From Xanthomonas sp. AM6 (GTDB taxonomy: Bacteria; Pseudomonadota; Gammaproteobacteria; Xanthomonadales; Xanthomonadaceae): a stretch of DNA of 64,000 nt. Below the pieces are notes generated by a model that saw nothing but the letters and a program-made list of their open reading frames with translations, was not told where the DNA came from and searched no databases. Positions 7,164 through 37,213 of the stretch are shown here, piece after piece. Both the position numbers and the translations under genes were made by a program. Positions within the stretch are counted from its first letter, which is position 1. Each line of letters opens with the position of its first letter. Where the stretch lies: contig NZ_CP106869.1 of assembly GCF_025665335.1 (NCBI RefSeq), positions 1,204,501-1,268,500 of the forward strand, written 5' to 3'.

Positions 7164-7247
7164 CGGCGATGTTCCTTGGGCTGTTGCGAGCATGGCGGCG
7201 CGTCCATGGGTGCACGCTGCGCGCATGGCGCCGCGATGCGCGTTGCC

Positions 7248-7874
7248 TCAGGCGGGCTTGATCATGTCGCGGGCATAGTCGAGGCCGATGCCGTAGCCGC
7301 CGCCGTGGTCGACGACGATGCCGCGTGCGGCCTCGTAGGTGGCGTGCCGGGTCCAGTCGCGTTGCAGTTCCAGCAGGAACTGCAGCCACGAGGTCATGAC
7401 CGCGCCGGCCTGTTCCATGCGGCGCAGCGCCGCGTCGTGGCTGGCGGCGGTCAGGCCGCCGCAGGCGTCCGCGACCACGTGCACCTTGTAGCCGTCGGCC
7501 AGCGCCGACAGCACCGGAAAGCTGATGCAGGCCTCGGTCAGCAGTCCGGCGACGACCAGCGTCCTGCGTCCGGTGGCGACGACCGCGGCCCTGGCCGCAT
7601 CGTCTTCCCACAGGTTCATGTTGCGTCGCTCGATCGGCGCGATGTCCGGCAGCGCGGCGCGCAGCGGCGGCATCAGCGGGCCGCTGTAGACCTTCGATGC
7701 CGAGGTGCTGACGACCACCGGCACGGCGAAGGCGGCGGCGGTGCGCGCGAGCGCCACGATGTTGCTGCGCAGGGATTGCCGGTCGGCCGAGCCGGCGGCG
7801 AAGGCCAGGCCGGCCTGTGCGTCGACCAGCACCAGCGCGCACTCGGCCGGGGTCAGCAGGGGGAGGTCGCTCAT
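7248..7874 (-). CDS. Isochorismatase-fold cysteine hydrolase (YcaC-like)
   Basis: 208-residue alpha/beta hydrolase of the isochorismatase family, which cleaves amide, imide or enol-ether bonds through an Asp-Lys-Cys triad. Visible parts: LVLVDAQAGLAF with the first Asp (about residue 18), NMNLWED in the lysine region (where the canonical Lys is not obvious), and GLLTEACISFPVL carrying the catalytic Cys (about residue 117). Then SHDAALRRMEQAGAVMTSW, typical of the YcaC/hydrolase subgroup. Clustered on the minus strand with a SnoaL-like protein and Dps, facing a two-component system. True substrate unknown; it is not expected to be an enterobactin enzyme because no such genes are near. Confidence 0.85.
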   Translation of the reverse strand: MSDLPLLTPAECALVLVDAQAGLAFAAGSADRQSLRSNIVALARTAAAFAVPVVVSTSASKVYSGPLMPPLRAALPDIAPIERRNMNLWEDDAARAAVVATGRRTLVVAGLLTEACISFPVLSALADGYKVHVVADACGGLTAASHDAALRRMEQAGAVMTSWLQFLLELQRDWTRHATYEAARGIVVDHGGGYGIGLDYARDMIKPA

Positions 7875-7896
7875 GATGTGCTCCAGGAATGAGGGG

Positions 7897-8421
7897 TTAT
7901 GGCGTGATGCCCAGTTGCTGGTCGACGGTCAGCCTGTCCCAGTAGATGGTGACGTCGTCGATCCGGTGGTCGGCCCGGTAGTGGAGCAGCATGACCCCGG
8001 GGTGATCGAAGCGGCGGCCGTTGCCGGGCGTGGTCTTGCCGGTCGCCGGATCCACGTAGGGACCGCTCCAGGTGCCGGTGACGCGCTCGACCGACACGCC
8101 CTGCATGCCGTCGACCAGCGCGTCGGCCAGGGTCACGTGGAAATCGGGATAGGCCTTGAAGATCATCGCGAAGAACGCGCGCGTCCCGGCCGCATCGAGC
8201 GGCCTGGGGTTGCTGGGCTGGTGGATCACCACGTCGGGCGTGAACAGGGCCATGACCGTGTCGATGTCGTGGCTGTTCCAGGCCTCGGCCCAGCGCTGGA
8301 TGTCGGCATGGGCGATGGCGCCGGCGGGCGGCGGCATCGGCGTCGCCTGGCCGGGCGACGCGCTGGCGGCGAACGCGGCGGCGAGCAGCACGGGCAGCGC
8401 GGACAGCAGCGTGTTGGGCAT
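7897..8421 (-). CDS. Exported SnoaL/NTF2-like protein (ester cyclase family)
   Basis: 174-residue protein with a signal peptide (residues 1-26, cut near GQA-TP) followed by an NTF2/SnoaL-like cone: RWAEAWNSHDIDTVMALFTPDVVIHQP (typical opening of the family), then FFAMIFKAYPDFHVTLADALVDG, and a closing strand VMLLHYRADHRIDDVTIYWDRLTVDQQLG. Homologues are called ester cyclase or polyketide cyclase-related, but most have no proven activity. It sits 22 nt upstream of the isochorismatase-like gene in transcription order and probably shares its mRNA. Function inferred only at fold level. Confidence 0.82.
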   Translation of the reverse strand: MPNTLLSALPVLLAAAFAASASPGQATPMPPPAGAIAHADIQRWAEAWNSHDIDTVMALFTPDVVIHQPSNPRPLDAAGTRAFFAMIFKAYPDFHVTLADALVDGMQGVSVERVTGTWSGPYVDPATGKTTPGNGRRFDHPGVMLLHYRADHRIDDVTIYWDRLTVDQQLGITP

Positions 8422-8460
8422 GGCGTGGTTCCCTGTCGCTGTGCGGATCGCGCGCGCGGT

Positions 8461-8979
8461 TCAGCGCGCGGCGCGGGTGCTCTCGTAGAGGAACCAGGCG
8501 CGGCGTTCGGCCTCGTCGATCCACACTTCGATCAGGCTGGTGGAGGCGACATCGTGGTGCTCGTCGCACACCGCGTGGGTCGCGCGCAGGAAGCCGGTGA
8601 GCCGGCGGTTGTCGTCGGCCAGTTCGGCCAGCATGTCCTGCGGGGTCACGTAGTCGGCGTCGTTGTCCAGCAGCCGCTGCAGGCGCTGGATGTGGCCGAT
8701 CGAGCGCAGCGTGGTTGCGCCGACCTTGCGCGCGCGCTCGGCGATGGCGTCGGTGGTGGCGAAGATCTGGTCGCCCTGTTCGTCGAGCAGCAGGTGGTAG
8801 TCGCGGAAATGCGGCCCGGACAGGTGCCAGTGGAAGTTCTTGGTCTTCAGGTACAGCGCGAACATGTCCGCCAGCAGGGCGTTCAGCGCGCCGCCGATGT
8901 CGGCGGTGGCCTGGGCGCCGAGATCGCTGGGGGTATGCAGCGCGCTGCTCTGGCGCGACTTGGTCGAAACGGTATCCAT
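8461..8979 (-). CDS. dps: Dps-type ferritin-like DNA-protection protein
   Basis: 172-residue mini-ferritin that oxidises Fe2+ with hydrogen peroxide and stores iron, shielding DNA during stress. The ferroxidase ligands are in TKNFHWHLSGPHFRDYHLLLDEQGD (about residues 46-70), the Dps signature; the C-terminal helix SLIEVWIDEAERRAWFLYE fits the family. The N-terminal tail is polar and flexible. First gene of the minus-strand block dps, SnoaL-like, isochorismatase-like, unknown. A 359-nt intergenic region separates it from the divergent histidine kinase, which may control it. Confidence 0.93.
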   Translation of the reverse strand: MDTVSTKSRQSSALHTPSDLGAQATADIGGALNALLADMFALYLKTKNFHWHLSGPHFRDYHLLLDEQGDQIFATTDAIAERARKVGATTLRSIGHIQRLQRLLDNDADYVTPQDMLAELADDNRRLTGFLRATHAVCDEHHDVASTSLIEVWIDEAERRAWFLYESTRAAR

Positions 8980-23936: not shown

Positions 23937-25196
23937 TTATCCAACGACGGAGGCCAGCTTGAAGATGGGCAGATACATGCCGATGACCATGCCGCCGACG
24001 ATGGTGCCGATGAACACCATGATCAGCGGTTCGATCAGGCTGCTCAGCGCATCCACCGCATTGTTCACTTCCTGCTCGAAGTACTCGGCCACCTTGAACA
24101 GCATCGCATCCAGCGCACCCGCCTCTTCGCCGATGGCGGTCATCTGGATGACCATGTGCGGAAACAGATTGGCCTGCTTCATCGCCACGTTGACCGGATA
24201 GCCCACCGACACGTCGTCGCGCATGCGCAGCACGGCCTTCTCGTAGACACTGTTGCCGGTGGCGCCAGCGACGATGTCCAGCGCCTCGACCAATGGCACG
24301 CCGGCACGGAAAGTCACTGCAAGTGTTCGCGCGAAGCGCGCCACGGAGCTGTTGTGCATGATCTGGCCGATGATCGGCACCTTCAGGATCAGCCGGTCCA
24401 TGCCGTGCTGCATCGACGGCGAGCGCTTATAGGCAAAGATGAAGCCGATGACGCTGCCTAGCAGCACAATCAGCAGTATCCACCAATAGGAAACCATGAA
24501 ACGAGAGGCGGCGACGATCATTTGCGTGAACGCCGGTAGGTCGGCACCAAAGCCCTTGAACACTTCTTCGAACTGCGGCACGACCCAGACCAGCAGGATC
24601 GAGCTGACCAGCAGGGCGACTGCCACCACCATGGCCGGGTAGAACAAGGCCTTCTTGATCTTGCCCTTCAAGGCCTCGATGTTTTCCTTGTAGGCCGCGA
24701 CCGTTTCCAGCACCGTTTCCAGCACGCCGGCGCCTTCGCCGGCCTTGACCAGGTTGCGGTAGAGCTCGTCGAACTGGATAGGATGCTTGCTGATCGCCTC
24801 ATAAAGCGATGAACCGCCCTCGATGTCGGTGCGGATCTGGTCCACCATCTTCTTCATGCGCGGGTTCTTGTGCCCGCTGGCGATGATCTCCAGCGACCCG
24901 ACGATGGGGACGCCCGATTTCATCATGGTCGCCATCTGGCGGCTGAAGAAGGCGATGTCCTTGGGGCTGATCTTGCTGCCGGCGGCGCCGAACAGCGGCT
25001 TGGGCTTGGGCTTGACCACCGACGGCGTAATGCCCTGGCGGCGCAGCTCCGCACGCAACAGGTTGGCATTCTTGGCGGTCTGCTCGCCCTTCATCTTGAC
25101 GCCGCGCTTGTCCGTCCCTTCCCAGACGAACGGCAGCTGCTGGCTGGTGTTGCGCGCGACAGGCTCTTTGGGTACTGCGCTACGAGTTGCGGACAT
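23937..25196 (-). CDS. pilC: Type IV pilus inner-membrane platform protein PilC
   Basis: 419-residue GspF-family platform protein that couples the PilB/PilT motors to pilin insertion. Two T2SSF repeats are visible (about residues 85-205 and 285-410), each starting with a cytoplasmic helical domain (FSRQMATMMKSGVPIVGSLEII; FARTLAVTFRAGVPLVEALDIV) and followed by hydrophobic helices. Start ATG 25196 has GGGGAG upstream; the extra upstream frame is rejected. Divergent from pilA. Confidence 0.96.
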   Translation of the reverse strand: MSATRSAVPKEPVARNTSQQLPFVWEGTDKRGVKMKGEQTAKNANLLRAELRRQGITPSVVKPKPKPLFGAAGSKISPKDIAFFSRQMATMMKSGVPIVGSLEIIASGHKNPRMKKMVDQIRTDIEGGSSLYEAISKHPIQFDELYRNLVKAGEGAGVLETVLETVAAYKENIEALKGKIKKALFYPAMVVAVALLVSSILLVWVVPQFEEVFKGFGADLPAFTQMIVAASRFMVSYWWILLIVLLGSVIGFIFAYKRSPSMQHGMDRLILKVPIIGQIMHNSSVARFARTLAVTFRAGVPLVEALDIVAGATGNSVYEKAVLRMRDDVSVGYPVNVAMKQANLFPHMVIQMTAIGEEAGALDAMLFKVAEYFEQEVNNAVDALSSLIEPLIMVFIGTIVGGMVIGMYLPIFKLASVVG

Positions 25197-25327
25197 CAGG
25201 TGTGCTCCCCGTCCAGCCATCCCCAGGCGGACATGCTCGGCATGGTATCGGTTTCCGTGGCGTCTGGCACCAGCGGTCAATGGTCAAGACTGGCCTCGAG
25301 CCACAGGGCAGCCAAGGTTTCAGTGGG

Positions 25328-25344
25328 GTGACGTTTTGCGTCAC
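25328..25344. promoter_or_regulatory. Palindrome, candidate activator site for pilA
   Basis: GTGACG-TTTTG-CGTCAC perfect inverted repeat, with a further GTGAC half-site at 25348-25352. It sits about 120-135 nt upstream of the sigma-54 promoter, the usual place for an enhancer bound by a regulator such as PilR. Assignment to PilR is inference. Confidence 0.45.
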
Positions 25345-25461
25345 TTTGTGACCTATCCTGGCAGAGGGGAAAGCCCGTCGCAATTCCTTTCTTTGCCCAT
25401 GCTGGGCGGCATTCAATGGGGCATCATGGCGGCTGGGGAGCATAGGGTCGCGTGGGGAAGT

Positions 25462-25478
25462 TGGCACGCGGCCTGCTT
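25462..25478 (+). promoter_or_regulatory. Sigma-54 promoter of pilA
   Basis: TGGCACGCGGCCTGCTT fits the -24/-12 pattern exactly at the invariant positions: GG at 25463-25464 and GC at 25475-25476, ten nt apart. Expected transcript start near 25488, leaving a leader of about 90 nt before the pilA ATG. pilA is RpoN/PilR-dependent in relatives and pilRS lie in this window. Confidence 0.85.
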
Positions 25479-25580
25479 GTATCACCCGCACGTGGCGCTC
25501 CGCCGCGCGGCGCTCGAGGGGTAGCAAGCTCCGCGGGCCGAGTGTCTGCCAACTTACACACCATCTCTAGGGGATTCACC

Positions 25581-25976
25581 ATGAAGAAGCAGCAGGGCTT
25601 TACCCTGATCGAACTGATGATCGTCGTCGCGATCATCGCCATTCTGGCCGCCATTGCGCTGCCGATGTACCAGGACTATGTCGCCAAGTCGCAGGCGACT
25701 GCCGGCCTGGCCGAGATCACCCCCGGCAAGACGCAGTTCGAAGTGCTGAAGAACGAGGGCAGCACGTTCAGTCAGCCCGATGCCATTGGTCTCAGCACGA
25801 ACACCGCCCGCTGCACGATCGCCATCACCGCTAACTCGATCACCTGCACCCTCAAGGGCAATGCGAACAAGATCGCAGGCAAGGTCATCACCCTGACCCG
25901 CAGCACCACTGGCGGCACCTGGAGTTGCAGCGGCGGCGCGCTGGATGCCAAGTACAAGCCGGCTGGCTGCAGCTGA
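25581..25976 (+). CDS. pilA: Major type IV pilin PilA
   Basis: 131-residue type IVa prepilin. The leader MKKQQG is cleaved before Phe; the mature start [32 protein letters not shown] has Glu5 and the hydrophobic assembly helix. Four Cys are in the globular head (TARC, ITC, WSC, AGC), enough for two disulfides, and the chain ends PAGCS with a terminal Ser directly after the last Cys. ATG 25581 follows AGGGGATTCACC; the frame upstream is not used. Sigma-54 promoter upstream, terminator at 26003. Head sequence differs strongly from the second pilin. Confidence 0.97.
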
Positions 25977-26002
25977 TCAGCGCGCGCTGTAACTGGTTCA
26001 TG

Positions 26003-26029
26003 GAACCCCGCTCATGCGGGGTTCTTTTT
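26003..26029 (+). terminator. Terminator after pilA
   Basis: Stem GAACCCCGC/GCGGGGTTC with TCAT loop followed by TTTTT, 27 nt after the pilA stop. It should separate most pilA mRNA from the second pilin gene. Confidence 0.92.
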
Positions 26030-26083
26030 GGCATGCATGTTGCTGAACATTACTCAATTACCTACACCACAAGCCGTGCTGAC

Positions 26084-26506
26084 ATGCAAGCCAATCGTGG
26101 CTTCTCCCTTATCGAGCTGATGATCGTGGTGGCGATCATCGCGGTCCTTGCGGCGATCGCCTTTCCCATCTATCAAGGGTATGTCGCCAAGACCCAGGCA
26201 GCGTCTGCGCTGGAAGAAATAAGTATCGGAAAAGTCGCATACGAGCAGCTCAGCAGCGTGGGCGCTTCTGACGCAGAGTTCACCAATGCCGCTCTCGGTC
26301 TCCAATTATCGACGGTGCGATGTAGTTCCATCTCCGTGGCTCCGCCAACAGGCAGTGGCAGTAACGTTGCCATAAGCTGCACCATCAGTGGGGCACCGGG
26401 CGCGCAAGGCGAGACGATCAGTCTTGAGCGCGGAGCCAACGGTGGTTGGCAATGCCGTAGCAGCGTTGCTGCAGTCATACGGCCAAATGGATGTATCGCC
26501 TCGTGA
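26084..26506 (+). CDS. Second type IV pilin (PilA paralogue)
   Basis: 140-residue prepilin-like protein: leader MQANRG, then [32 protein letters not shown] with Glu5. The head has four Cys in the same order as PilA (TVRC, ISC, WQC, NGC) but otherwise little similarity, and ends PNGCIAS. It follows the pilA terminator, has no evident sigma-54 site and a weak ribosome-binding region, so expression is likely lower than pilA or depends on read-through. It may be an alternative major pilin or a minor subunit. Upstream in-frame ATG 26033 would give an unusually long leader and is less likely. Confidence 0.92.
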   Translation: MQANRGFSLIELMIVVAIIAVLAAIAFPIYQGYVAKTQAASALEEISIGKVAYEQLSSVGASDAEFTNAALGLQLSTVRCSSISVAPPTGSGSNVAISCTISGAPGAQGETISLERGANGGWQCRSSVAAVIRPNGCIAS

Positions 26507-26564
26507 TCGGTGAGCGAAGCTCGGTTGTTGGAGCAATCCGTTGTTTTAAAGGTGAAGTTCACTA

Positions 26565-28379
26565 ATGGTGCATCGCCGTTTTGTGTTGATGGCGTTGCTG
26601 GTCGCGACGATCTGTGCGCTGGTAATGGCGCCAGGTGTCTCGGGCGGGTTTTTGTTCGACGACTTCACCAACATCGTCTTCAACCAAAAGATTCATGTGA
26701 CGCAATGGACAGTAAGTACTTTCCGTGATGCGTTGCATGCTTACGAGGGTTCCATTGGGCGTCCATTTGCGACCTTGAGCTTTGCCTTCAATTATTGGCT
26801 GGATGGGCTGAATCCCATCGGCTTCAAGATCGGAAATCTCCTGCTGCACGTCGCCAATATCTTATTGGTAGCCTATTTGCTGCGGCTTATCCTGTCGCTG
26901 TTGTGGATTTCCGCCAGTGAAAATTCCATCGGGGCTGCTGCATTGCTCGGTGCGGCTTTGTGGGGTGTTCATCCCATACAGGTCTCTGCAGTGCTTTATG
27001 TCGTTCAACGCATGGAGCTCATGGCTGCAAGCTGCATCTTTGTTTCCCTGATCCTCTATTGTCGTGGACGCATGCGGCAGATCGAAGGCCGGCATGGCGG
27101 CTGGCGGCTCGTATCGGTCAGCGCCGTTGTGGCTGCGTTTGGCTTGACCTGCAAGGAAACTGCGGCATTGGTGCCGCTGCTTTCATTCGGAATGGAGTTG
27201 ACGGTATTCCGGTTCGCCGGAGCCAGGATCGGGAATCACCGGATATTGGCCTGGTTATATGGCGCGGGATTGTTGGTGACGGCGGGAGTCTACGCTTTCT
27301 GGCTGGTTCCCGATGCTGGCGCAGCATACGTTTCTCGAAATTTCACCATGGTGGAGCGACTGTACACGCAGCTTCGGGTGTTGCCGATGTACCTGACGCA
27401 AATCGCTTGGCCGGCGCCGTCAAATTTGATTTTTTATTACGATGGGCTATATCAGTCGACCTCGCTGTTTTCACCTATCTCAACCTTCTGGGGAGGGGTG
27501 TCGCTGGTCGCGCTCGCCATTGCGGCTGTCCTGTTCCGGAAAAGCGCGCCATTGTCGTCGTTGGGTATCTACTTCTTCTTTGCGGCACATGCCTTGACGA
27601 GCGGCGTGATTCCACTCGAACACGCGTTCGAGCACCGAAACTATCTGGCGCTTTTGGGGGTGGTGCTGGTCCTGGTGGATATCGGGTTGAGGTGCGCGCA
27701 GAAATTGCCGTCGCGAATCGTTGTTTTTTTTGCCAGTGGCATTCTGCTCTGCTTGGCTACCACCACAGTATTCCGTAGTTTGGTCTGGGGGAATCCGCTG
27801 GTGCTTGCCAGCAGCGCCGTGCATGATGCGCCTGATTCGCCGCGTGCTTCCTATGAGATGGGCATTCTCTTCATTGAACGTTCTGGGGCCGATCCGGCGT
27901 CCGTGCCGTTCGCGCTTGGGATGGCTTCGCTGAGCCATGCAGCCGAGCTTCCGCTTTCCTCGCCGCTACCGCTGCAAGCCATTATTTTAGTGAACTACAA
28001 GACCGGCCAGCTGGTTGATCCTCAGTTGTGGGAAAGGCTGTTCGCCAAATTCAGAACGCGCGCGATCGGCTCCCAGGAGTTGAGTGCGTATTACACGTTA
28101 ATGGGGGAGCGTATGTCCGGTTTGAATATTCCGGATGAGCGGCTCCGTGAATTATCTGGCATCATTATCGATAGGCGCCCGGATATTAGGGATGTTCACA
28201 TTTATTATGCGGATTTCGCCAGAAAGAATCTGCACGACGACACTGTTGCGCTTCATGAGTATCGTGCCGCCATCGCATTGACAAAGCGGTCCGAGCGGGC
28301 TGCCTTGGTGGCGAAGATAGTGCTTCAGCTAAGAGCGGAGGGCGATCGGTCACTGGCTGATTCGATAAAACTTCCTTGA
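26565..28379 (+). CDS. Polytopic GT-C-like membrane protein, candidate pilin glycosyltransferase
   Basis: 604-residue integral membrane protein with about ten to twelve helices up to residue 420 and a soluble C-terminal region with helical, TPR-like pairs. An acidic motif early in the first external loop (GGFLFDDFTNIVFN, about residues 27-40) resembles the Asp-containing catalytic loop of GT-C lipid-sugar-dependent transferases. WGVHPIQVSAVLYVVQRMELMAA (about 138) is a signature of the bacterial TMTC-like/TPR membrane protein group. It directly follows the two pilin genes (58 nt), the position held by pilin O-glycosylation enzymes such as TfpO or TfpW in Pseudomonas. It is visibly more A/T-rich than flanking core genes. 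Role as pilin glycosyl ligase is an inference. Confidence 0.7.
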   Translation: MVHRRFVLMALLVATICALVMAPGVSGGFLFDDFTNIVFNQKIHVTQWTVSTFRDALHAYEGSIGRPFATLSFAFNYWLDGLNPIGFKIGNLLLHVANILLVAYLLRLILSLLWISASENSIGAAALLGAALWGVHPIQVSAVLYVVQRMELMAASCIFVSLILYCRGRMRQIEGRHGGWRLVSVSAVVAAFGLTCKETAALVPLLSFGMELTVFRFAGARIGNHRILAWLYGAGLLVTAGVYAFWLVPDAGAAYVSRNFTMVERLYTQLRVLPMYLTQIAWPAPSNLIFYYDGLYQSTSLFSPISTFWGGVSLVALAIAAVLFRKSAPLSSLGIYFFFAAHALTSGVIPLEHAFEHRNYLALLGVVLVLVDIGLRCAQKLPSRIVVFFASGILLCLATTTVFRSLVWGNPLVLASSAVHDAPDSPRASYEMGILFIERSGADPASVPFALGMASLSHAAELPLSSPLPLQAIILVNYKTGQLVDPQLWERLFAKFRTRAIGSQELSAYYTLMGERMSGLNIPDERLRELSGIIIDRRPDIRDVHIYYADFARKNLHDDTVALHEYRAAIALTKRSERAALVAKIVLQLRAEGDRSLADSIKLP

Positions 28380-28462
28380 TTGACAGATCTTTCGCTCAAA
28401 ATTTGGTATGAGCCGGATGGTCATGTATTGCAGCTGTGACTGCTTCAGCTATGTTCGGCACT

Positions 28463-29581
28463 CTAGTGAATTTGTCTGCTTCGGCTTCCGGACGCTTTCC
28501 TGAGGCTGGAATCGAGCTTCAATGCGCATTCCCTCCACGTGGAGGCCTGCGTGTCCGGTAACGACGGGCTTTCAAGAAGGTTAGAGATCCGGCTTGCCAG
28601 CGACTTTTTGTCGCCAGGTGGATAGAGGTATCTGCTGTCGTTCCGAAGCGTCTTGGGTGTATCGCCCAACGCTGCTGCAACTATGGGGATTCGCATCGCC
28701 AGCATTTCATGCAGTTTGAGCGGGAAGCAATAGCGACCGAATGCAGAGTCTCTGTTGCATACAATGCCGACGTCCAAAGATGCTAAAAATCCGGGAACCT
28801 TTATCTGGTCCAAAACGCCGAGGTCAAATATCCTTTCATGGCGATAACGTCGCGCAACGTTGTCGGTAGGGCCAGCGTGCGCCAGGTAGATGTTTTCGTC
28901 CGTGCGCGAAAGTTGAAGGAAGGCTTCAAACATATCCTCTATTCCACGGTCGGCGGTCAGTGAGCCGGCACTGCCGATGATACGGGCATCAGCAGGCAAG
29001 GAGAGCGCAGACCGGGCTTCGGTTTTGCGCATTGGATGGAAAATCCCTTCCTGCACACCATTTACCACGATATGTATGGGGGCGGATGTGTGGTACTCGC
29101 TGGAAATGTAGCCGGCCAAAGCTTCGCTTACGACCGTGAGGCCATTCGCTTTTTGACAGGCGGAGCGGAACGCACGAGCCAGTCCCGGTATTTTTGAAAG
29201 GCCGAACGCTTCATAGTTGTCGTAAAGATCTATGAGGCAGGGGATGCCTTTGGTTGACGTCCAGCGCATTGCCAGAAGCGCTTGGATCATGTCTGAGCTT
29301 GCCCACACCACGTTGGGTCGCCAGTCTGCAGTCACTTGGTCGAGCCAGCGAGAGTAGCGATAAAGTCCATCGGGAAATGCATTGATCGAGTGCCACTGCA
29401 CACCGAGCTCGTCAGTTTGCTCGATGGCGTTCTCTCCGCGATTTCGATAGCTGAGGGCACATACCCTTACCGAGTGACCCAGCCTGGATAGCTCGCGAGG
29501 GAGCTCATGCAAACGTCCGAAGCGGTCGTCGATGAGATCCTTGCCCGTGTATTGCCGCTTGCACAGTACCAGTGTCTTCAC
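28463..29581 (-). CDS. GT4-family glycosyltransferase
   Basis: 372-residue GT-B-fold glycosyltransferase, probably cytoplasmic. N-terminal half: RLHELPRELSRLGHSVRVCALSY; C-terminal nucleotide-sugar half: ARIIGSAGSLTADRGIEDMFEAF (start of the GT4 domain, about residue 200), LASLDVGIVCNRDSAFGRYCFPLKLHEMLAMRIPIVAAALGDTP, the stretch holding the acidic/Leu donor-binding pattern. Start is GTG 29581. It is oriented against the preceding membrane protein and divergent from the methyltransferase gene, suggesting a modular, acquired cassette. Sugar donor and acceptor unknown. Confidence 0.85.
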   Translation of the reverse strand: MKTLVLCKRQYTGKDLIDDRFGRLHELPRELSRLGHSVRVCALSYRNRGENAIEQTDELGVQWHSINAFPDGLYRYSRWLDQVTADWRPNVVWASSDMIQALLAMRWTSTKGIPCLIDLYDNYEAFGLSKIPGLARAFRSACQKANGLTVVSEALAGYISSEYHTSAPIHIVVNGVQEGIFHPMRKTEARSALSLPADARIIGSAGSLTADRGIEDMFEAFLQLSRTDENIYLAHAGPTDNVARRYRHERIFDLGVLDQIKVPGFLASLDVGIVCNRDSAFGRYCFPLKLHEMLAMRIPIVAAALGDTPKTLRNDSRYLYPPGDKKSLASRISNLLESPSLPDTQASTWRECALKLDSSLRKASGSRSRQIH

Positions 29582-29981
29582 TAGGAGTTCTCAATGCTCT
29601 GGACAGCTAATGGCGAGCCAGGCCTGCCCTCTGGTGGACTCGCTCCACACGGCGTAGATTAGCGGCAATGGGGGGGCGCTGATAGCGTGCGCTTGGCATA
29701 CGCCAAGAACAACGACGTCCGCACCCAAGTGGCGCTTCAGTCCAACTCGGTCGGGCGAGAGCGAAGATGGGCGCTTGATCGTCGCATGCGCTCGGCGAAG
29801 AGGCGATACGCGATGCAGCGAGAGCTGGACAATGCTTCTCTGCTGTTTGGCAAGAGAGGGGGCGAGCAATGGTCCGAGGCATCGTGCAAGCGTCCTGGAT
29901 AGCATGGCGCCATGATGGGAGCGGTCTGTTGTAGGTGGTGTGTCACACCTTGTAAATAATGCATTGACTGAAGGCACGAAC
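29582..29981. other. Divergent intergenic gap in the glycan cassette
   Basis: 400 nt between the divergent GT4 and FkbM methyltransferase genes. Frames are open on the minus strand for up to 133 codons but look unlike any protein I know and lack a start signal. It must contain both promoters; none was recognised. Confidence 0.4.
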
Positions 29982-30857
29982 ATGAACTCCATCGCGCTCC
30001 TCCGTTTGCGCGCTTTCGCGAAGGCGCTTTCACTCGATGGGCGATTCGTTGTGCCTCAATCGATCATGAGGAGAGCTTTTCGCCATCATCGCGCCATAGT
30101 CAGCGTCGACGACTTCGATGGGACCATGTCCATGGATCTCTCGCTGACAGAACATATGCAACGACGTATTTTCTGGATGGGCTATTACAGCCAAGGCATC
30201 GTGGCGACACTCGACTGGTTGCTTAAGCCGGGTATGGTCTTCATCGATGTGGGCGCCAATATTGGAGAGATCACGCTTGTGGCGGCAAAGCGGGTCGGAC
30301 AGTCCGGAAGGGTCGTTTCGTTCGAGCCGGTCGATGCCCTGGCCGACCGCCTGTGCGATCACGTCTCCCGCAATGCGTTGCGCAATGTGACCGTAGTGCG
30401 CAAGGGGCTTTCCAGTCAGTCCGGCTTCGCGCCAATTTTTTCTTCCTGCGGGCAGGGGGACGCCGGTGATGAGCATCACGGGCTGGGGAGCCTTTTTGGA
30501 AGTCGCGCGCATGATCGGGAATTGCAGGAAATCGAAATCTCGACATTAGATGCTTATGTGGAGGGAGCCCAGTTGCCGTCGGTCGACGTGGTCAAAATCG
30601 ATATTGAGGGTGCGGAACTACCCTGCCTGCAGGGCGCTGCGATCTTGCTGGAGAAGCACAAACCCATGTTGATCGTAGAGGTTCAGCGCGAATCGTCACT
30701 GAAGGCGGGCTACCATCAGGAAGAGATACTCGACTACTTGGCCAAGTTTGGATATGGATTCAAGGCCATCGAGTCAAATGGCGCGCTGCGGACGATCGAC
30801 CGCCATTCGCTTGCTCCATATCAAAATGTCTTGTGCAGTGTTGTTGTTTCGGAATGA
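29982..30857 (+). CDS. FkbM-family methyltransferase
   Basis: 291-residue SAM-dependent O-methyltransferase of the FkbM family, which often methylates sugars on glycans. Motif I is PGMVFIDVGANIGEITLVAAKRVG (about residues 85-105), followed by GRVVSFEPVDALADRL, then VDVVKIDIEGAELPCLQGA (about 203), the characteristic FkbM acidic motif, and PMLIVEVQRES. ATG 29982 follows AAGGCACGAAC. Its stop overlaps the next glycosyltransferase start (ATGA), showing translational coupling. Likely target: a hydroxyl of the glycan made by this cassette (inference). Confidence 0.9.
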   Translation: MNSIALLRLRAFAKALSLDGRFVVPQSIMRRAFRHHRAIVSVDDFDGTMSMDLSLTEHMQRRIFWMGYYSQGIVATLDWLLKPGMVFIDVGANIGEITLVAAKRVGQSGRVVSFEPVDALADRLCDHVSRNALRNVTVVRKGLSSQSGFAPIFSSCGQGDAGDEHHGLGSLFGSRAHDRELQEIEISTLDAYVEGAQLPSVDVVKIDIEGAELPCLQGAAILLEKHKPMLIVEVQRESSLKAGYHQEEILDYLAKFGYGFKAIESNGALRTIDRHSLAPYQNVLCSVVVSE

Positions 30858-32017
30858 CGGCGCCCTCGTCCGCCAGCGTCTGGTTCTTGTTAAGTCGCTT
30901 GGATCGAGGTGGCTTGGAGCGAGTGCAGGTTTCGTTGGCCAATGGGCTGCGTGCTCGCGGATACGATGTCAAGCTAATTGCCGGAAAGTTGTCTTCTGCG
31001 CAAAGTGCCGTGCTGGCTGGCGACATCCCATTTCAGGAGATTGCTCCGCGCGGTCCGTGGGAGTTCCCCTTGGGTCTTTGGCGGGCATGGCGGCGTGAAC
31101 GGCCCAGGGTCGTAGTCACCACCTCAAATGATGTTGCTTGCCTCGTACTCATTTTTAAATTTTTCTTGCGTTGGTCGAGCCATGTAGTGGTGACTCAGCA
31201 CCAATCTTTGTCTGGGCCGCGGGTCAGGTCCATGGGGGGGCGGCGCTTGAAGCTTGAGCTGCTCAGGATCGCCATGCGGATGTTGTTTCCGCATGCGGAC
31301 AGATGTATTGCCGTCTCTGAAGCGGTTGCGAGCGACATGCAGTCTGAACTGAAGTTGCTGCCGAGCAGGGTGCTTGTGGCTTACAACCCTGTGGTCACCG
31401 CGGATTGGGAGCAACGAGCCAAGGCGCCTTTGCAGTGGCCGTGGCCGGACAGGGATGTTCCCACCATCATTTTCGTTGGCCGCTTTTCTCCAGAAAAGCG
31501 CCTGGATGTTCTTCTTCGGGCATTCGCTCGCATCCTCATTACGAGAAGGGCGAGGTTGTTGCTGGTGGGCGCGGGAGACCAGGAGGGAGCAGTGTCGGAA
31601 CTTGCAATGCGAGCTGGTCTAGGCAGCAGATGTCAGTCGATCGGTTATGTTGTTGATCCCTTGCCGTATATCTACCAGTCGAGCGTTCTGGTCTTGTGTT
31701 CCGACTACGAGGGCTTTGGAAACGTTCTTGTGGAGGCTATGGCGTGCGGCACTCAGGTCGTTTCGACGGATTGTCGTCATGGGCCGCGCGAAATACTTGA
31801 GGATGGCCGCTATGGGCAGTTGGTGCCGTGTGGTGACAGCGAGGCATTGGCGGAAGCGTTGATCGCCGTCATCGATGGTCGGTTGTGGGTCGACCCCGAT
31901 GCGCTGAAGCGACGAGCCGCCAATTTCTCCGAGCGAAGTTCCGTCGATGCCTATGAGCGCGTCATCGTGGGGATCGGTGCGCGCTCGGCGGCTGGGACGC
32001 GGTCGTCCGGTAAGTAA
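30854..32017 (+). CDS. GT4-family glycosyltransferase (GalNAc-transferase-like)
   Basis: 387-residue GT-B glycosyltransferase. N-terminal acceptor half begins FLLSRLDRGGLERVQVSLANGLRARGYDV; the GT4 donor half has TIIFVGRFSPEKRLDVLLRAF (about residue 200), LPYIYQSSVLVLCSDYEGFGNVLVEAMACGTQVVSTDCRHGPREIL with the EGFGNVLVEA signature of retaining GT4 enzymes. Family members add sugars to lipid-linked or LPS-type glycans. Start overlaps the FkbM stop by 4 nt; its 3' end overlaps the convergent flippase gene by 56 nt. Confidence 0.92.
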   Translation: MTAPSSASVWFLLSRLDRGGLERVQVSLANGLRARGYDVKLIAGKLSSAQSAVLAGDIPFQEIAPRGPWEFPLGLWRAWRRERPRVVVTTSNDVACLVLIFKFFLRWSSHVVVTQHQSLSGPRVRSMGGRRLKLELLRIAMRMLFPHADRCIAVSEAVASDMQSELKLLPSRVLVAYNPVVTADWEQRAKAPLQWPWPDRDVPTIIFVGRFSPEKRLDVLLRAFARILITRRARLLLVGAGDQEGAVSELAMRAGLGSRCQSIGYVVDPLPYIYQSSVLVLCSDYEGFGNVLVEAMACGTQVVSTDCRHGPREILEDGRYGQLVPCGDSEALAEALIAVIDGRLWVDPDALKRRAANFSERSSVDAYERVIVGIGARSAAGTRSSGK

Positions 32018-33242
32018 GCAGCCTAGCCGAAAATAGCAGCATCAGTGTGCACTCTCCGGCGATCAAGGCCCAAGCGGAGCCTATCGCTCCGCGCTCGGGT
32101 GTCAGGACGAACATGGTGCATGCCAGTACGAAAAGTCCCATGGTTTCCAGCAACACCCTGGCACGAACGTCCCCCCGCGCGAGCAGCCAATGCGCTAGCA
32201 GGATTCGCATGCAACTGACGGGCGCGCACCACGCGAGTAGTTTCACGACCGGCGTCGCAGACTCGAATTGGCTCCCGAGCAATGCAACGATGGCGTCAGA
32301 AACGAAGTAAAGGGCTAACCCTGCAATCATCCCGTAGCCTAGCGTGGTGGCAAACAGGGCTCGCATCATGGATGGGTGCTCGTTCATTCCGGCTCCGTGC
32401 CTGAACATCCTTGGCAACGCGGTTCCGATCAGGCCTTCGATTGGCAACGTTGCCAAGCCGGTGAATCGCTGCGCTGCGGTGAAGTTGCCGGCCACGCTAT
32501 CGCCACCCCATCGCAATGCAAAGGTTTTGTCCATGGAGTTCCACGCGATTGTGCTTGCCCATATGCCGGAAAGCCCGGCCCCCTCCCTCAAATCGCTCCA
32601 AGCCAGGTTGGAGTTTGGAGCGCTTTTCAGCAGGCGATTCATGCAAGCGCGCCGCAATAACAATGCGCAAACCGCCATTGCGGCCACATGCAGCCACACA
32701 TAAAGAGCGAGCCCTTGACCAGATTCGAAAAGCAAGAAGGCAACGACCGCAACGACTCTTGCCACGGAGCCGGCCACCGGTATCGCCGCGGCTTGCAAGA
32801 CTTTCGCATGTGCGGCGTACGCAGCGGCAACCTGCGCGATGATCGGTGCGAACAGGATTTCCGATAGGCCAACACCCAGTAGCATCCATGTTTGCGGATG
32901 CTCGAACATGAGGCTTGCCAGCACGACGTACAAAAGCAGAAGGGCGGGGGTGCTCCACACCAGCGCACGGCTTGCCTGATGCCATCTGGTTGCAAACAAG
33001 GTTGGATCACGCGCTGTGTCCTGGTACATGCGCAGGCCCAGGCCGAAGCCGGCAAAGCCTCCCAGTGCGACGGCAAGCCCCGCGATGCCGGAGTAGCTGC
33101 CGTATCCGGATGCTCCGAGAACGCGCGCGAGCAGCAATACCCACACGAGTTGGCTGCCGACGCGCGAGGCATGCCAGAGCGTCGTGCCAATCGTGTTTCT
33201 CGCCAGCCAGCCGAGTTTTGGCAATCGAGTGCTTTTGCTCAT
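31962..33242 (-). CDS. Wzx-like oligosaccharide flippase (MOP superfamily)
   Basis: 426-residue polytopic protein with about 12 to 14 membrane helices, starting with the amphipathic family lead (LARNTIGTTLWHASRVGSQLVWVLLLARVLGASGYGSYSGI). It has no large soluble domain. Proteins of this type move undecaprenyl-diphosphate-linked oligosaccharides across the inner membrane. It is encoded downstream of a GT4 and GT2 on the minus strand, start overlapping the GT4 stop by 4 nt, and convergent with the plus-strand GT4. This supplies the export step that a periplasmic pilin ligase would need. Confidence 0.88.
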   Translation of the reverse strand: MSKSTRLPKLGWLARNTIGTTLWHASRVGSQLVWVLLLARVLGASGYGSYSGIAGLAVALGGFAGFGLGLRMYQDTARDPTLFATRWHQASRALVWSTPALLLLYVVLASLMFEHPQTWMLLGVGLSEILFAPIIAQVAAAYAAHAKVLQAAAIPVAGSVARVVAVVAFLLFESGQGLALYVWLHVAAMAVCALLLRRACMNRLLKSAPNSNLAWSDLREGAGLSGIWASTIAWNSMDKTFALRWGGDSVAGNFTAAQRFTGLATLPIEGLIGTALPRMFRHGAGMNEHPSMMRALFATTLGYGMIAGLALYFVSDAIVALLGSQFESATPVVKLLAWCAPVSCMRILLAHWLLARGDVRARVLLETMGLFVLACTMFVLTPERGAIGSAWALIAGECTLMLLFSARLLTYRTTASQPPSAHRSPR

Positions 33243-34441
33243 GCCATCGATGCGTCTTTGCGCTTTTCGGCCAAGCCACCTAGCAACTTGGCATATGCGC
33301 CAGCGCGGCTGTCCCAGTCAAAGCGACGTACGTCGGCTGGATCGGCGGGGCGCGGCGAGAGCATCATGCGGGTAATCGCCTCGGCGAGCGCTTCCGTGTT
33401 GCCCGGTATCACCGTACGTAGCCCGCTACACGTTTCGGCCAAGCGCCGCACTGCAGGGATGTCCGATACGACCACTGGGCAGCCGCAGCCCAGCGCTTCT
33501 ATCAGCACGAGTCCAAGGCCATCTTGATCGCCGCTTTTTGCCTCGACAAACGGGGCGACGAACAAGGCGGCGCGGCGGTAGAGGGAGGGAAGCTCCGACT
33601 GGGGGACTGCGCCAAGGAAGCGAATGGTGTCCTGCAATCCCAGGTTGCGGACCTGTTCCTTGCGCATCTCCAGTTCGGGCCCGAATCCGGCAACTGTCAA
33701 CGTGGCACCGGGGACGGCGGCCCGGATCGCGTGCATTGCAGCGATCAGGAACCGTAGGCCCTTTTTTTCCACGAGCCTGCCGACGAACAGTATTTCCGTG
33801 CGCGACCGGGGCACTGCGGGGTCGGGAAAGAACCTGCCGGAAAGATCCGTCCCCATCGGCTCCACCACCACTTTGGACATGTCCGTACCCAGGTCGGCCA
33901 CCTGCGCCAGCATGCCTTCGCTGACAACGGCGAGACGCGCCGATCGCCGGATCACCATGCGCTTGATCGCGCGGAACGGCCACGCCTTCAGCGCAAACAG
34001 GTCCGCACCATGCGAGGTGACCAGAAACGGCAGGGACGGCGCCACGATCGTCAGCGCAGTGGCTGCCAGCCCCTGCGGGATCAGCCAGTGCGCGTGGATG
34101 ATGGCGGGCCGGCACGTGCGAAGCGTCCGATAGCCGGCGACCAGTTGGCCGAGGAAAAACCCTGGGAGCAGTAGTGCCTTCCAGGGATGGCGCCTCACGT
34201 TTGCGACCATTCCCCCATCGTTCACCAGCGTCTCCCAGCGCTGCGGCGCATAGCGGTAACGATGGATTTCGACGGAATCCATCAGTTCGCGTTCTAGCGC
34301 GCCGCTGGCATGGGGACAGATCACCACGACGCGGAACCGGTCGGTCAAGCGTCTGGACAGTTCATGCACGAAGCCAGGCTCTGGGTCGTCGCGCCAACGG
34401 GGATAGGTGGACGTCAGCACCAAGAGCGTTGGCTTGGTCAT
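33239..34441 (-). CDS. GT4-family glycosyltransferase
   Basis: 400-residue GT-B enzyme. Opening VLTSTYPRWRDDPEPGFVHELSRRL is typical of glycan-cluster GT4 proteins; IIHAHWLIPQGLAA and TSHGADLFAL form the acceptor half, TEILFVGRLVEKKGLRFLIAAM and FVAPFVEAKSGDQDGLGLVLIEALGCGCPVVVSDI the donor-binding half with the E-x7-E type pattern. Its 3' end overlaps the flippase start and it lies 22 nt after the GT2 gene, so GT2-GT4-flippase form a minus-strand operon. Confidence 0.92.
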   Translation of the reverse strand: MTKPTLLVLTSTYPRWRDDPEPGFVHELSRRLTDRFRVVVICPHASGALERELMDSVEIHRYRYAPQRWETLVNDGGMVANVRRHPWKALLLPGFFLGQLVAGYRTLRTCRPAIIHAHWLIPQGLAATALTIVAPSLPFLVTSHGADLFALKAWPFRAIKRMVIRRSARLAVVSEGMLAQVADLGTDMSKVVVEPMGTDLSGRFFPDPAVPRSRTEILFVGRLVEKKGLRFLIAAMHAIRAAVPGATLTVAGFGPELEMRKEQVRNLGLQDTIRFLGAVPQSELPSLYRRAALFVAPFVEAKSGDQDGLGLVLIEALGCGCPVVVSDIPAVRRLAETCSGLRTVIPGNTEALAEAITRMMLSPRPADPADVRRFDWDSRAGAYAKLLGGLAEKRKDASMA

Positions 34442-34463
34442 GTCGCTGCTCGCCCGCGCGCGC

Positions 34464-35321
34464 TCAGGCGTCGCGCCGGTAGGTCAGGTTGGTGATCTGC
34501 TCCGAGATCAATCCGATCAGGAAGATGATCACCGATGCGCTGAACAGCAGCGTGCTCATGTTGGTGAAACGATGCATCGTCGCGAAGGTGTAGCCGTAGT
34601 AGGCGAGCCCGAGGGCGAAGAACGCCATTGACACCGGCACGAACAGCTTCAGCGGCGAGTACAGGGTGGCGATCTTGAAGATGATCAGCAGGAAACGGAT
34701 GCCGTCCTTCATCGGGCGGATATGGCTGCCGTTGCCGACGCGCCTGGCGACCGGGATCGGCACATAGGCCACGGGGTAGGCGCTGCGGAAGAAGGCCATG
34801 GTGCTGGTGGTGGGGTAGCTGAAGCCGTTGGGGAGCAGGTGCAGGAACTCGCGGAACCTGTCCGCGCGCACGGCACGGAAGCCGGAGGTGAGGTCCTTCA
34901 CCTCGAAGCCGGTCATGCGGCTCGCCAGCCAGTTGTAGAAGCGGTTGGCGAGGCCGCGGTGCACGCTGGCCTGGCCGCTGCTGTCGCGCGCGCCGACCAC
35001 CATGTCGTAGCCTTGGCCAAGCTTGGTCAGCAGCTTCTGGATGTCGCCAGGGTCGTGCTGTCCGTCGGCGTCCATGAACACGAGGATGTCGCCGCTCGCG
35101 GCGCGCGCGCCGCGCTTGATCGCCGCGCCATTGCCCATCGAGTAGGGGCTGCCGATGACCCGGGCGCCCTGGTCGCGCGCAACCTGGGCGGTCGCGTCGG
35201 TCGAGCCGTCGTCGACCACGATGATCTCGGCATCCGGCATTTCCTCACGCAGCCGGGGCAGCGTGCGCGACAGGCCGGCCACCTCGTTCTTGGCTGGTAG
35301 GATGATGCTGATCTTGTCCAA
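34464..35321 (-). CDS. GT2 dolichyl/undecaprenyl-phosphate sugar transferase (DPM1-like)
   Basis: 285-residue GT-A glycosyltransferase with C-terminal membrane anchor. N-terminal SIILPAKNEVAGLSRTLPRL and EIIVVDDGSTDAT bind nucleotide; FMDADGQHDPGD (about residue 87) carries the DxD metal site; LTSGFRAVRADRF follows. Two membrane helices at about 215-235 and 253-275. Such enzymes charge polyprenyl phosphate with one sugar, the donor used by GT-C transferases in the periplasm. First gene of the minus-strand operon; divergent from pilB. Pairing with the GT-C-like protein at 26565 is an attractive inference. Confidence 0.9.
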   Translation of the reverse strand: MDKISIILPAKNEVAGLSRTLPRLREEMPDAEIIVVDDGSTDATAQVARDQGARVIGSPYSMGNGAAIKRGARAASGDILVFMDADGQHDPGDIQKLLTKLGQGYDMVVGARDSSGQASVHRGLANRFYNWLASRMTGFEVKDLTSGFRAVRADRFREFLHLLPNGFSYPTTSTMAFFRSAYPVAYVPIPVARRVGNGSHIRPMKDGIRFLLIIFKIATLYSPLKLFVPVSMAFFALGLAYYGYTFATMHRFTNMSTLLFSASVIIFLIGLISEQITNLTYRRDA

Positions 35322-35473: not shown

Positions 35474-37213
35474 ATGAACGCAGCTGTCTCGGCCAACCTG
35501 GTTGGCATCACCGGTATCGCGCGCCGCCTGGTTCAGGATGGCGCGGTCGAAGAAGCGGTCGCGCGGACCGCGATGGCGCATGCCGCCGAAGCCAAGATCC
35601 CGCTGCCGCAATGGTTCTCGGAGAAGAAGCTGGTCACCGCGGCGCAGCTGGCCGCCGCCAATGCGGTGGAGTTCGGGATGCCGTTGCTGGATGTCTCGGT
35701 GTTCGACGCCAGCCAGAACGCCATGAAGCTGGTCAGCGAGGAGCTGTTGCAGAAGCACCAGGTGCTGCCGCTGTTCAAGCGTGGCAACCGCCTGTTCGTC
35801 GGCATCAGCAACCCGACCCAGACCCGGGCGCTGGACGACATCAAGTTCCATACCAATCTGACCGTCGAGCCGATCCTGGTCGACGAGGACCAGATCCGGC
35901 GCACGCTGGAGCAGTGGCAGGCGAGCAACGATGCGATCGGGAACAGCCTGGGCGGCGACGACGAGGGCATGGACAACCTCGAGGTCGGGGCCGGCGACGA
36001 GGACATGGGCAGCGGCGGCGATACCGGCGTGGATGCCAAGGGCGACGATACGCCCGTGGTCAAGTTCGTGAACAAGGTGCTGGTCGATGCGATCCGCCGC
36101 GGCGCCTCGGACATCCATTTCGAACCGTACGAGGACGACTACCGGGTGCGCCTGCGCATCGACGGCCTGCTCAAGAGCGTGGCCAAGGCGCCGGTCAAGC
36201 TCAACCAGCGCATCGCGGCGCGGTTGAAGGTGATGTCGCAGCTGGACATCGCCGAGAAGCGGGTGCCGCAGGACGGGCGCATCAAGCTCAACCTGTCCAA
36301 GAGCAAGCAGATCGACTTCCGCGTCAGCACGCTGCCGACGCTGTTCGGCGAGAAGATCGTGCTGCGTATCCTCGATGGCAGCGCGGCCAAGCTGGGCATC
36401 GACAAGCTGGGCTACGAGCCGGAGCAGCAGAAGCTGTTCCTGGACGCGATCCACAAGCCCTACGGCATGGTGCTGGTGACCGGCCCGACCGGTTCGGGCA
36501 AGACGGTGTCGCTGTACACCGCGCTGGGCATCCTCAACGACGACACCCGCAACATCTCCACCGCCGAGGATCCGGTCGAAATCCGCCTGCCCGGCGTGAA
36601 CCAGGTGCAGCAGAACAACAAGCGCGGCATGACCTTCGCCGCGGCGCTGCGTTCGTTCCTGCGCCAGGATCCGGACATCATCATGGTCGGCGAAATCCGC
36701 GACCTGGAAACCGCCGAGATCGCGATCAAGGCGGCGCAGACCGGCCATATGGTGCTGTCCACGCTGCACACCAACGATGCGCCGCAGACCATCGCGCGCC
36801 TGATGAACATGGGCATCGCGCCGTACAACATCACCAGCTCGGTGACGCTGGTGATCGCGCAGCGCCTGGCGCGGCGGCTGTGCAACAACTGCAAGCGCCT
36901 GGCCCCGGCCATGCCGGAGAACGCGCTGTTGAAGGAAGGCTTCACCGAGGCCGAGGTCGCCGCCGGCATCCAACTGTACGAGGCCGTGGGCTGCGACGAG
37001 TGCACCGAGGGCTACAAGGGCCGCACCGGCATCTACCAGGTGATGCCGATGAACGACGAGATCGCCGCGATCGTGCTGCAGGGCGGCAATGCGATGGAGA
37101 TCGCCGAGGCGGCGCAGAAGATCGGAGTCAAGGACCTGCGCCAGTCGGCGCTGCTCAAGGCCCGCAACGGCATCACCAGCCTGGCCGAGATCAATCGCGT
37201 CACCAAGGACTGA
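35474..37213 (+). CDS. pilB: Type IV pilus assembly ATPase PilB
   Basis: 579-residue hexameric ATPase powering pilus extension. Layout: N-terminal T2SSE_N domain (about 40-160), an acidic Gly/Asp linker (about 160-190), then the ATPase with Walker A GPTGSGKTVS (about 336), Asp box, Walker B QDPDIIMVGEIRD (about 396), His box STLHTNDAPQT, and a zinc-binding CNNC...CDEC tetracysteine (about 475-522). In many xanthomonads it follows pilA closely; here about 9 kb of glycan genes intervene. Confidence 0.97.
   Translation: MNAAVSANLVGITGIARRLVQDGAVEEAVARTAMAHAAEAKIPLPQWFSEKKLVTAAQLAAANAVEFGMPLLDVSVFDASQNAMKLVSEELLQKHQVLPLFKRGNRLFVGISNPTQTRALDDIKFHTNLTVEPILVDEDQIRRTLEQWQASNDAIGNSLGGDDEGMDNLEVGAGDEDMGSGGDTGVDAKGDDTPVVKFVNKVLVDAIRRGASDIHFEPYEDDYRVRLRIDGLLKSVAKAPVKLNQRIAARLKVMSQLDIAEKRVPQDGRIKLNLSKSKQIDFRVSTLPTLFGEKIVLRILDGSAAKLGIDKLGYEPEQQKLFLDAIHKPYGMVLVTGPTGSGKTVSLYTALGILNDDTRNISTAEDPVEIRLPGVNQVQQNNKRGMTFAAALRSFLRQDPDIIMVGEIRDLETAEIAIKAAQTGHMVLSTLHTNDAPQTIARLMNMGIAPYNITSSVTLVIAQRLARRLCNNCKRLAPAMPENALLKEGFTEAEVAAGIQLYEAVGCDECTEGYKGRTGIYQVMPMNDEIAAIVLQGGNAMEIAEAAQKIGVKDLRQSALLKARNGITSLAEINRVTKD

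Follow-up and report, generated by a model that had tools for sequence, protein, structure and literature searches.

A pilin-linked, PMT/TMTC-like GT-C protein with an exchangeable glycan gene module at the type IV pilus locus of Xanthomonas: a probable pilin O-glycosylation system

The type IV pilus locus of Xanthomonas sp. AM6 encloses a set of glycan-assembly genes which most probably forms a system dedicated to the O-glycosylation of type IV pilins, with a donor module that can be exchanged and with biochemical steps that we infer from gene content and linkage. The window, i.e., the whole stretch of DNA analysed here, measures 64 kb and corresponds to positions 1,204,501-1,268,500 of a single-contig genome of 4,917,337 bases. 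The genes of interest follow the order pilC(-), pilA1(+), pilA2(+), GT-C(+), GT4a(-), FkbM(+), GT4b(+), Wzx-like(-), GT4c(-), GT2(-) and pilB(+). Central among them is the gene of a GT-C protein of 604 amino acids, which starts 58 bases after the pilA2 stop codon and whose relatives accompany pilin genes well beyond the genus.

Pilin linkage and identity of the GT-C protein

Genomic linkage gives strong support to the pilin-glycosylation role put forward by the original prediction. Within the taxonomic family, 145 of 297 genomes, representing 35 of 54 genera, carry a member of the GT-C family (E 1e-20); at class level a match was obtained in 112 of the 369 genomes sampled (E 1e-8). We chose 40 loci, from 40 genomes and 29 genera, among these 145 matching genomes in 35 genera, and all of them (40/40) show a prepilin motif on the same strand as the GT-C gene and no more than 1 kb from it, at a gap of 0-644 bases. 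The motif was also present in the retrieved stretch of 70 of the best 80 genome-contig loci, 68 of them carrying it co-directionally within 2 kb upstream, and in that of 15 of 20 class loci, 11 of them within 2 kb; the latter proportion is biased downwards, since five of the 20 were picked precisely because their shorter versions had no pilin motif (among the shorter loci, 14 of 19 showed it). In contrast, no prepilin motif was found around 40 control genes of the PMT and Wzy_C types (0/40); the flanks of these controls were shorter, and GT-C loci with flanks of about 1.5 kb score 29/30 in the same scan.

The gene set is also found in simpler arrangements. Locus L136 presents, all in one direction, a pilin gene, the GT-C gene, an open reading frame (ORF) of 155 amino acids, a GT2 gene, a PF03706 gene, pilB and pilC, while L156 (Pseudomonas chengduensis) carries in one co-directional run a pilin gene and homologs of GT-C, GT2, Wzx, a methyltransferase, FkbM, GT4b and GT4a. 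The opposing orientations seen in Xanthomonas are thus not essential to the gene set.

Other dispositions were observed as well. In five relatives from the taxonomic family (L076, L077, L078, L080 and L083) the GT-C gene stands between two pilin genes and not behind both, and two or more tandem GT-C paralogs occupy the pilin locus in L094, L131, L175 and many of L178-L220; such paralogs might add different sugars or serve different pilins. The genes behind pilA may vary greatly within a single genus, as in L261-L280 (taken for Pseudomonas), where TMTC-like GT-C or other large polytopic proteins are encoded. Among the 20 pilB neighbourhoods of that genus, one of which is only 391 bases long, two have a clear member of the GT-C family and one a weak relative, the rest giving no match; downstream of both clear members come an ORF whose start resembles that of a GT2 and, at a greater distance, an ORF of about 300 amino acids.

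Taken alone, the GT-C protein has no match in Pfam (E up to 0.1) or NCBIfam (E up to 0.01), and nothing useful came from searching its sequence against the PDB and against plasmids, or an early family profile against the PDB. The family profile, built from 56 relatives, is more informative. Compared by hhalign with 16 PF02366 PMT proteins it reached 95.8% in local and 98.2% in global mode, and with other sets of PMT rows 97.7% (19 rows, three of them wrong-frame ORFs) and 84.6% (5 rows). The same profile scored 0.3% against 16 Wzy_C proteins and 0.1% against an earlier Wzy_C set (20 rows, four of them wrong-frame ORFs), and 0.1-0.3% against the Wzx and PF03706 sets; moreover, the protein has no PF04932 match. 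By these comparisons, the GT-C protein is not a Wzy_C-type oligosaccharyltransferase, and its profile matches PMT-type enzymes. Its C-terminal part, at profile positions ~404-629, is matched by TPR structures, both engineered (E 4e-33, many repeats) and natural, the TPR of OGT (E 4e-10).

Conservation within the family was followed in 114 nonredundant relatives (16 of 140 loci were dropped for having no usable ORF, and 133 sequences were thinned at 75% identity). Residues D32, D33, R66, R149, K197, R265, E356 and R358 are invariant (114/114), E198 is kept in 112, Y360 in 105 and T199 in 51. The two aspartates would lie in the first periplasmic loop, as judged from sequence.

These positions recall the eukaryotic TMTC1-4, O-mannosyltransferases using dolichyl-P-mannose as donor, whose motifs are given in the excerpt consulted as DD, SHKSYRP, RxD, KE(T/Q)xxT and ERxxY (PMC7801869). 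The window protein shows DD, R66P67, R149xE151, K197E198T199 and E356HRNY360; it shares with TMTC1-4 a GT-C membrane part followed by a C-terminal TPR domain, in part, the DD, R(P), R-x-acid and KE motifs and, here, a DPM1-like GT2 partner. It departs from them in having no match to TMTC_DUF1736 (PF08409, Pfam scan), in the absence of the SHKSY part and of the exact ERxxY register, the arginine of its ExRxY being shifted by one, in keeping P67 and E151 only partly across relatives, and in a putative acceptor that would be a pilin and not a cadherin, with additional donor-module genes. We have therefore labelled the protein TMTC-like and not TMTC, as DUF1736 is absent and several motifs match only partly. 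A search for PF08409 in 150 genomes likewise gave no match, nor did it detect its controls.

The locus in the window and across the genus

The features of the locus, in window coordinates, are the following:

23937..25280, minus strand: pilC, type IV pilus inner-membrane platform protein, conserved left flank (T2SSF PF00482, E 3e-63); coordinates of the maximal ORF, the true start being probably later
25581..25976, plus strand: pilA1, pilin ending in ...KPAGCS (PF00114, E 1e-23); codon adaptation index (CAI) 0.68, native codon usage
26084..26506, plus strand: pilA2, second pilin, directly 5' of the GT-C gene, ending in ...NGCIAS (PF00114, E 4e-15); CAI 0.36, foreign-like; start set one codon early, at 26081, in our scripts
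26565..28379, plus strand: GT-C protein of 604 amino acids with C-terminal TPR domain (PMT/TMTC-like), proposed pilin glycosyltransferase from profile comparison and conserved residues
28463..29581, minus strand: GT4a glycosyltransferase (PF13579/PF00534)
29982..30857, plus strand: FkbM-family methyltransferase (PF05050, E 5e-22; TIGR01444 over cut-off)
30833..32017, plus strand: GT4b glycosyltransferase (PF13692, E 4e-35)
31962..33242, minus strand: candidate Wzx/MATE-type flippase (PF01943, E 3e-08, over cut-off)
33239..34441, minus strand: GT4c glycosyltransferase (PF13692, E 4e-30), right end of the foreign-like segment; CAI 0.47
34464..35321, minus strand: GT2, candidate polyprenyl-monophosphate sugar synthase, ArnC/DPMS/GtrB/AglJ-like (PF00535); native codon usage
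35474..37213, plus strand: pilB, type IV pilus extension ATPase, conserved right flank, named from its translation

The genes named by the original prediction are indeed found where it had placed them, and Pfam confirms the families of the GT4 enzymes, FkbM, the Wzx-like protein and GT2 (a sequence search of the Wzx-like protein in the PDB gave no match). The three opposing transcription units that it described are instead four co-directional runs, from pilA1 to GT2. Its A/T-rich cassette is real in composition and misplaced in its limits. The GC content falls to 0.53-0.59 in the seven 1-kb bins of 26,001-33,000 and does not drop below 0.636 in any bin outside 24,001-33,000. In parallel, pilA2, GT-C, GT4a, FkbM, GT4b, Wzx and GT4c have CAI values of 0.32-0.47, below those of all 21 flanking reference ORFs, which were picked for a GC content at third codon positions above 0.75, a choice that favours a contrast; pilC (0.64), pilA1 (0.68), GT2 (0.76) and pilB (0.83) fall inside the range of these references. 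The foreign-looking segment runs from pilA2 through GT4c, at about 26.08-34.44 kb, and the CAI pattern implies that what seems to have been exchanged takes in pilA2 and leaves out GT2, which the prediction had counted within the cassette. A terminator-attenuator behind the pilin genes was considered and discarded, as the region holds 10 terminator-like sites where 9.7 are expected by chance.

The pilC-pilB interval was read in all 20 genomes of the genus, every one of which has pilC; in the other 19, pilC is 90-96% and pilB 90-98% identical to the window copies. A GT-C gene stands at the pilus locus in nine of the 20, the window and eight others at 38-44% identity. In these nine, tblastn finds two pilin matches, and the GT2 gene lies beside pilB, its product being 89-98% identical to that of the window in the eight others. 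GT-C and the close GT2 thus co-occur in 9/9 and are both absent in 11/11. In the eleven genomes without GT-C, the interval measures 0.87-2.8 kb and holds two pilins in only two of them; genome-wide, eight have only a GT2 paralog of 31-33% identity elsewhere, and three have none at E 1e-20.

Between these conserved flanks the middle genes are exchanged in at least four versions, described here from Pfam runs on representatives, with the remainder assigned by sequence similarity. Type A (G000, G002 and G017) consists of GT4a, FkbM, GT4b, Wzx and GT4c, to which G002 and G017 add a methyltransferase, and GT4a homologs occupy the same place in G002, G017 and G018. Type B (G007, G011 and G012) has a GT4, a PF03706 membrane protein and a methyltransferase. 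Type C (G008 and G015) comprises an aminotransferase, an ORF without Pfam match, a methyltransferase, a PF03706-like protein (below cut-off) and a GT4; G008 alone has a second methyltransferase. Type D (G018) encodes GT4a, another GT4, an asparagine-synthase-like protein, a methyltransferase, a Wzx-like protein and GT4c. None of the nine loci therefore lacks a GT4, a methyltransferase or a flippase-like protein, the last being of the PF01943 or of the unrelated PF03706 type, so that one flippase-like family is replaced by another between module types. Taken together, types A-D indicate that changing proteins fill a constant set of roles, namely lipid-sugar synthase, GT4, methyltransferase and flippase, and the fact that nine of 20 genomes have genes of these kinds in this position argues that the gene set is not due to chance.

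As to the history of the site, the horizontal, modular acquisition that had been proposed is borne out as far as modular exchange is concerned, by the module types and the CAI values; given that GT-C is present in 35 of the 54 genera of the taxonomic family, the patchy presence within the genus may stem from loss as well as from gain. Two further observations concern the interval. The asparagine-synthase-like protein of type D (L030/G018 7009-8913) has PF00733 and GATase domains, which suggests an amidated sugar acid, and the pilA-pilB interval of the cassette-free G005 contains an IS200-like transposase (PF01797; L017 16644-17378), possibly the trace of a loss.

The GT-C protein appears to go with the pilins rather than with the sugar module, as can be deduced from its sequence. 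Between G000 and G002/G017, which have the type A module in common, the GT-C membrane parts differ by 0.60, whereas that of G015, which has the unrelated type C module, differs from that of G002 by only 0.46, and the pilins of the latter pair are closer too. The distance matrix covers eight of the nine genomes with GT-C; G008 was left out because the pilin motif scan misses unusual pilins (it finds one in G006 and in G008, versus two by tblastn).

With regard to the pilins themselves, a TfpO-like glycosylation at a C-terminal Ser was considered and set aside: both window pilins end in Ser, and the feature is not conserved, the pilins of other GT-C-bearing genomes of the genus having ends such as ...CG, ...CTTSL and ...CRAD. 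The genome has a third PF00114 match, at 640528-640845, about 0.56 Mb away, near ORF starts resembling topA and smg. Its immediate surroundings showed no recognisable glycosylation genes; a PMT match and a Wzy_C match lie 7-10 kb beyond this region.

Donor pathway and relation to known systems

The best PDB matches of GT2 are ArnC, dolichol-P-mannose synthase (DPMS) and sll0501, which we take to be of the GtrB type, and its best NCBIfam match is AglJ, below the cut-off of that model. Synthases of the ArnC/DPMS type load polyprenyl monophosphate, and sll0501 presumably does likewise. On the other hand, no phosphoglycosyltransferase (PF02397 or PF00953) was matched among the cassette proteins, to which the search for PF00953 was confined, and the sole PF02397 match of the genome is at 1.995 Mb, 0.76 Mb away. 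The classical undecaprenyl pyrophosphate pathway is therefore incomplete here, and the simplest complete pathway would be one in which GT2 primes a monophosphate lipid. The former claim that every step is encoded in the cassette would thus hold for a GT2-primed polyprenyl-monophosphate pathway, the "prenyl-phosphate charging" of its wording, and not for the classical one. No UbiA or phosphoribosyltransferase domain was found by Pfam among the cassette proteins, and donor genes may lie elsewhere.

A pathway of this kind is known in haloarchaea, where the GT2 enzyme AglJ primes a lipid monophosphate on which further glycosyltransferases and a methyltransferase build a dolichyl-phosphate oligosaccharide. 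The present system differs in being bacterial, in its proposed O-linked pilin target and in lacking AglB.

The comparisons that follow rely on excerpts of the cited papers. One of the closest known systems is that of TfpW, a GT-C enzyme which arabinosylates the pilin in Pseudomonas aeruginosa group IV / P. paraeruginosa (PMC11841053, PMC12369383). As far as its description allows, TfpW resembles the present protein in being a GT-C encoded behind a pilin gene in an exchangeable pilin cassette, with a lipid-phosphate donor and a pilin acceptor that are here putative; unlike TfpW, which adds D-Araf, the protein is accompanied by a GT2, GT4 enzymes, a methyltransferase and a flippase. With TfpO/PilO, TfpM and PglL/PglS the system would share periplasmic transfer from a lipid carrier and, for TfpO, TfpM and PglS, a gene near the pilin (PMC12645811). 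The known O-oligosaccharyltransferases possess an O-antigen-ligase/WaaL-like domain (PMC12645811), and the GT-C protein differs from TfpO, TfpM and PglL in showing no Wzy_C match. Finally, the combination of a polyprenyl-P sugar synthase, a flippase and a GT-C, here recognised by sequence family only, is that of the Gtr/GT136 systems (PMC11127046), and the synthase is here a GT2, as GtrB is. With respect to the published components, the differences are the putative pilin acceptor, the Wzx- or PF03706-type flippase, and the added GT4 and methyltransferase genes.

Proposed mechanism, alternatives and significance

We propose that GT2 would charge polyprenyl monophosphate with a first sugar in the cytoplasm, as its ArnC/DPMS/GtrB-type relatives suggest, that the GT4 enzymes would lengthen the glycan and the FkbM methyltransferase cap it, to judge by their families, and that the Wzx-like protein would move the lipid-linked glycan across the membrane. 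The GT-C protein would then pass this glycan from its lipid carrier on to Ser/Thr residues of the pilins whose genes lie immediately 5' of its own, as the pilin linkage and the conserved residues of catalytic type suggest, while its TPR domain may hold the acceptor. In its broadest form, which we advance tentatively, the proposal describes a widespread, unrecognised class of systems in which a TMTC-like GT-C+TPR protein, together with a DPM1-like GT2, would transfer methylated oligosaccharides en bloc from polyprenyl monophosphate, and not diphosphate, to type IV pilins, the donor modules being swapped between conserved pilC-pilA and GT2-pilB arms with a serotype-like variation of the pilus surface as a result.

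Several observations weigh against this proposal. Regarding linkage, no pilin motif is present in three class loci with long flanks (L121, L133 and L134) or in one genome-contig locus (L201, full flanks), and four class loci have it more than 2 kb away or not co-directionally upstream; nine of the ten motif-less loci among the best 80 are on short contigs of ~5.5-10 kb, some with several kb 5' of GT-C. A GT2 homolog (>100 bits) was found in the stretch of only 23 of the 40 family loci and 35 of the best 80 genome-contig loci, as well as 13 of the 20 class loci, in stretches that end 7-8 kb out. As for the protein, the global profile alignment places its DD out of register with the DE of the PMT proteins, so that the fold call rests on the overall profile, and two residues of the TMTC motifs are incompletely conserved (P67 in 99 and E151 in 81 of the 114 relatives). 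With respect to the acceptor, the GT-C distance correlates about equally with the distances of the near and the far pilin (Spearman 0.55-0.62 in 71 loci, left after thinning from the 81 of 149 loci with two tandem pilins), relatedness being a confounder, and the attempt to pick the substrate pilin in this way was given up, the two not being separable. Nothing clear emerges from the Ser/Thr content of the pilin heads either (pilin 1, 0.26 with GT-C and 0.22 without; pilin 2, 0.16 with GT-C). Furthermore, GT4 enzymes and methyltransferases serve many surface glycans, and we know of no precedent for the transfer of an oligosaccharide by a PMT/TMTC-type enzyme.

The main alternative, which we hold to be rather unlikely, is that GT2, flippase and GT-C alone add a single sugar to the pilin in a Gtr-like manner, while the GT4 enzymes and FkbM make another product. 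It is established for these families that PMT-type GT-C and ArnC/DPMS-type synthases use polyprenyl-P monosaccharides, three-component systems are known (from the excerpt of PMC11127046), and the L136 locus, which before pilB has nothing more than the pilin, GT-C, 155-residue ORF, GT2 and PF03706 genes, would fit such a single-sugar version. GT4 and methyltransferase genes are, however, part of all nine loci of the genus, the same gene types recur in Pseudomonas chengduensis, and GT4 enzymes need cytoplasmic donors and would not extend a sugar once exported.

It is quite improbable that the cassette makes a component of O-antigen, capsule or exopolysaccharide and sits at the pilus locus by accident. 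GT4, Wzx and FkbM are typical of surface polysaccharide loci and their Pfam matches are generic; nevertheless, the ten proteins scanned, from pilC to GT2, include no Wzy_C, ABC exporter or phosphoglycosyltransferase domain, and the linkage to pilins holds across many genera. A Wzt_C match (O-antigen exporter) is at 4.10 Mb and the PF02397 match at 1.995 Mb, while the window covers 1.20-1.27 Mb, and on account of this distance an O-antigen locus identity was set aside. Least credible is the idea that the GT-C protein would be an accessory of pilin assembly, a TfpX/Y/Z-like chaperone and not a transferase. In its favour, TfpX/Y/Z accessory genes are also behind pilin genes, TfpY is not a glycosylation enzyme according to the consulted part of PMC11841053, and a TPR domain could bind pilin. 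Against this, D32, D33, R66, R149, K197, E198 and the ExRxY positions of PMT/TMTC are kept in 105-114 of the 114 relatives, the protein travels with a lipid-P-sugar synthase, and the TfpY-like proteins of that excerpt show three helices at the N-terminus and lack a recognised glycosyltransferase domain (PMC11841053).

Glycosylation linked to pilin genes is already known, as the excerpts on TfpO, TfpW, TfpM and PglS make clear; what looks new is a PMT/TMTC-type enzyme at pilins with an exchangeable donor module. In the titles and abstract openings of the papers listed from the open-licence literature, no pilin glycosylation was found described for Xanthomonas, Xanthomonadaceae or Lysobacter, and none of those listed for TPR, TMTC or polyprenyl together with pilins describes the present system; Xanthomonas campestris pv. 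vesicatoria is counted among the organisms with pilin accessory proteins in the part consulted of PMC11841053, which cites a 1997 fimA paper. Likewise, the excerpts of the cited papers do not include this enzyme type in the pilin glycosylation enzymes that they name.

Phages use type IV pili as receptors, and Pseudomonas can evade pilus phages by glycosylating its pilin (PMC11841053, in part). If our proposal is true, many Lysobacterales and other Gammaproteobacteria would decorate their pilins with variable, methylated glycans, and the locus would offer a natural set of interchangeable glycan modules. Moreover, it would tie protein O-mannosylation of the human type (DPM1 + TMTC) to a bacterial surface filament.

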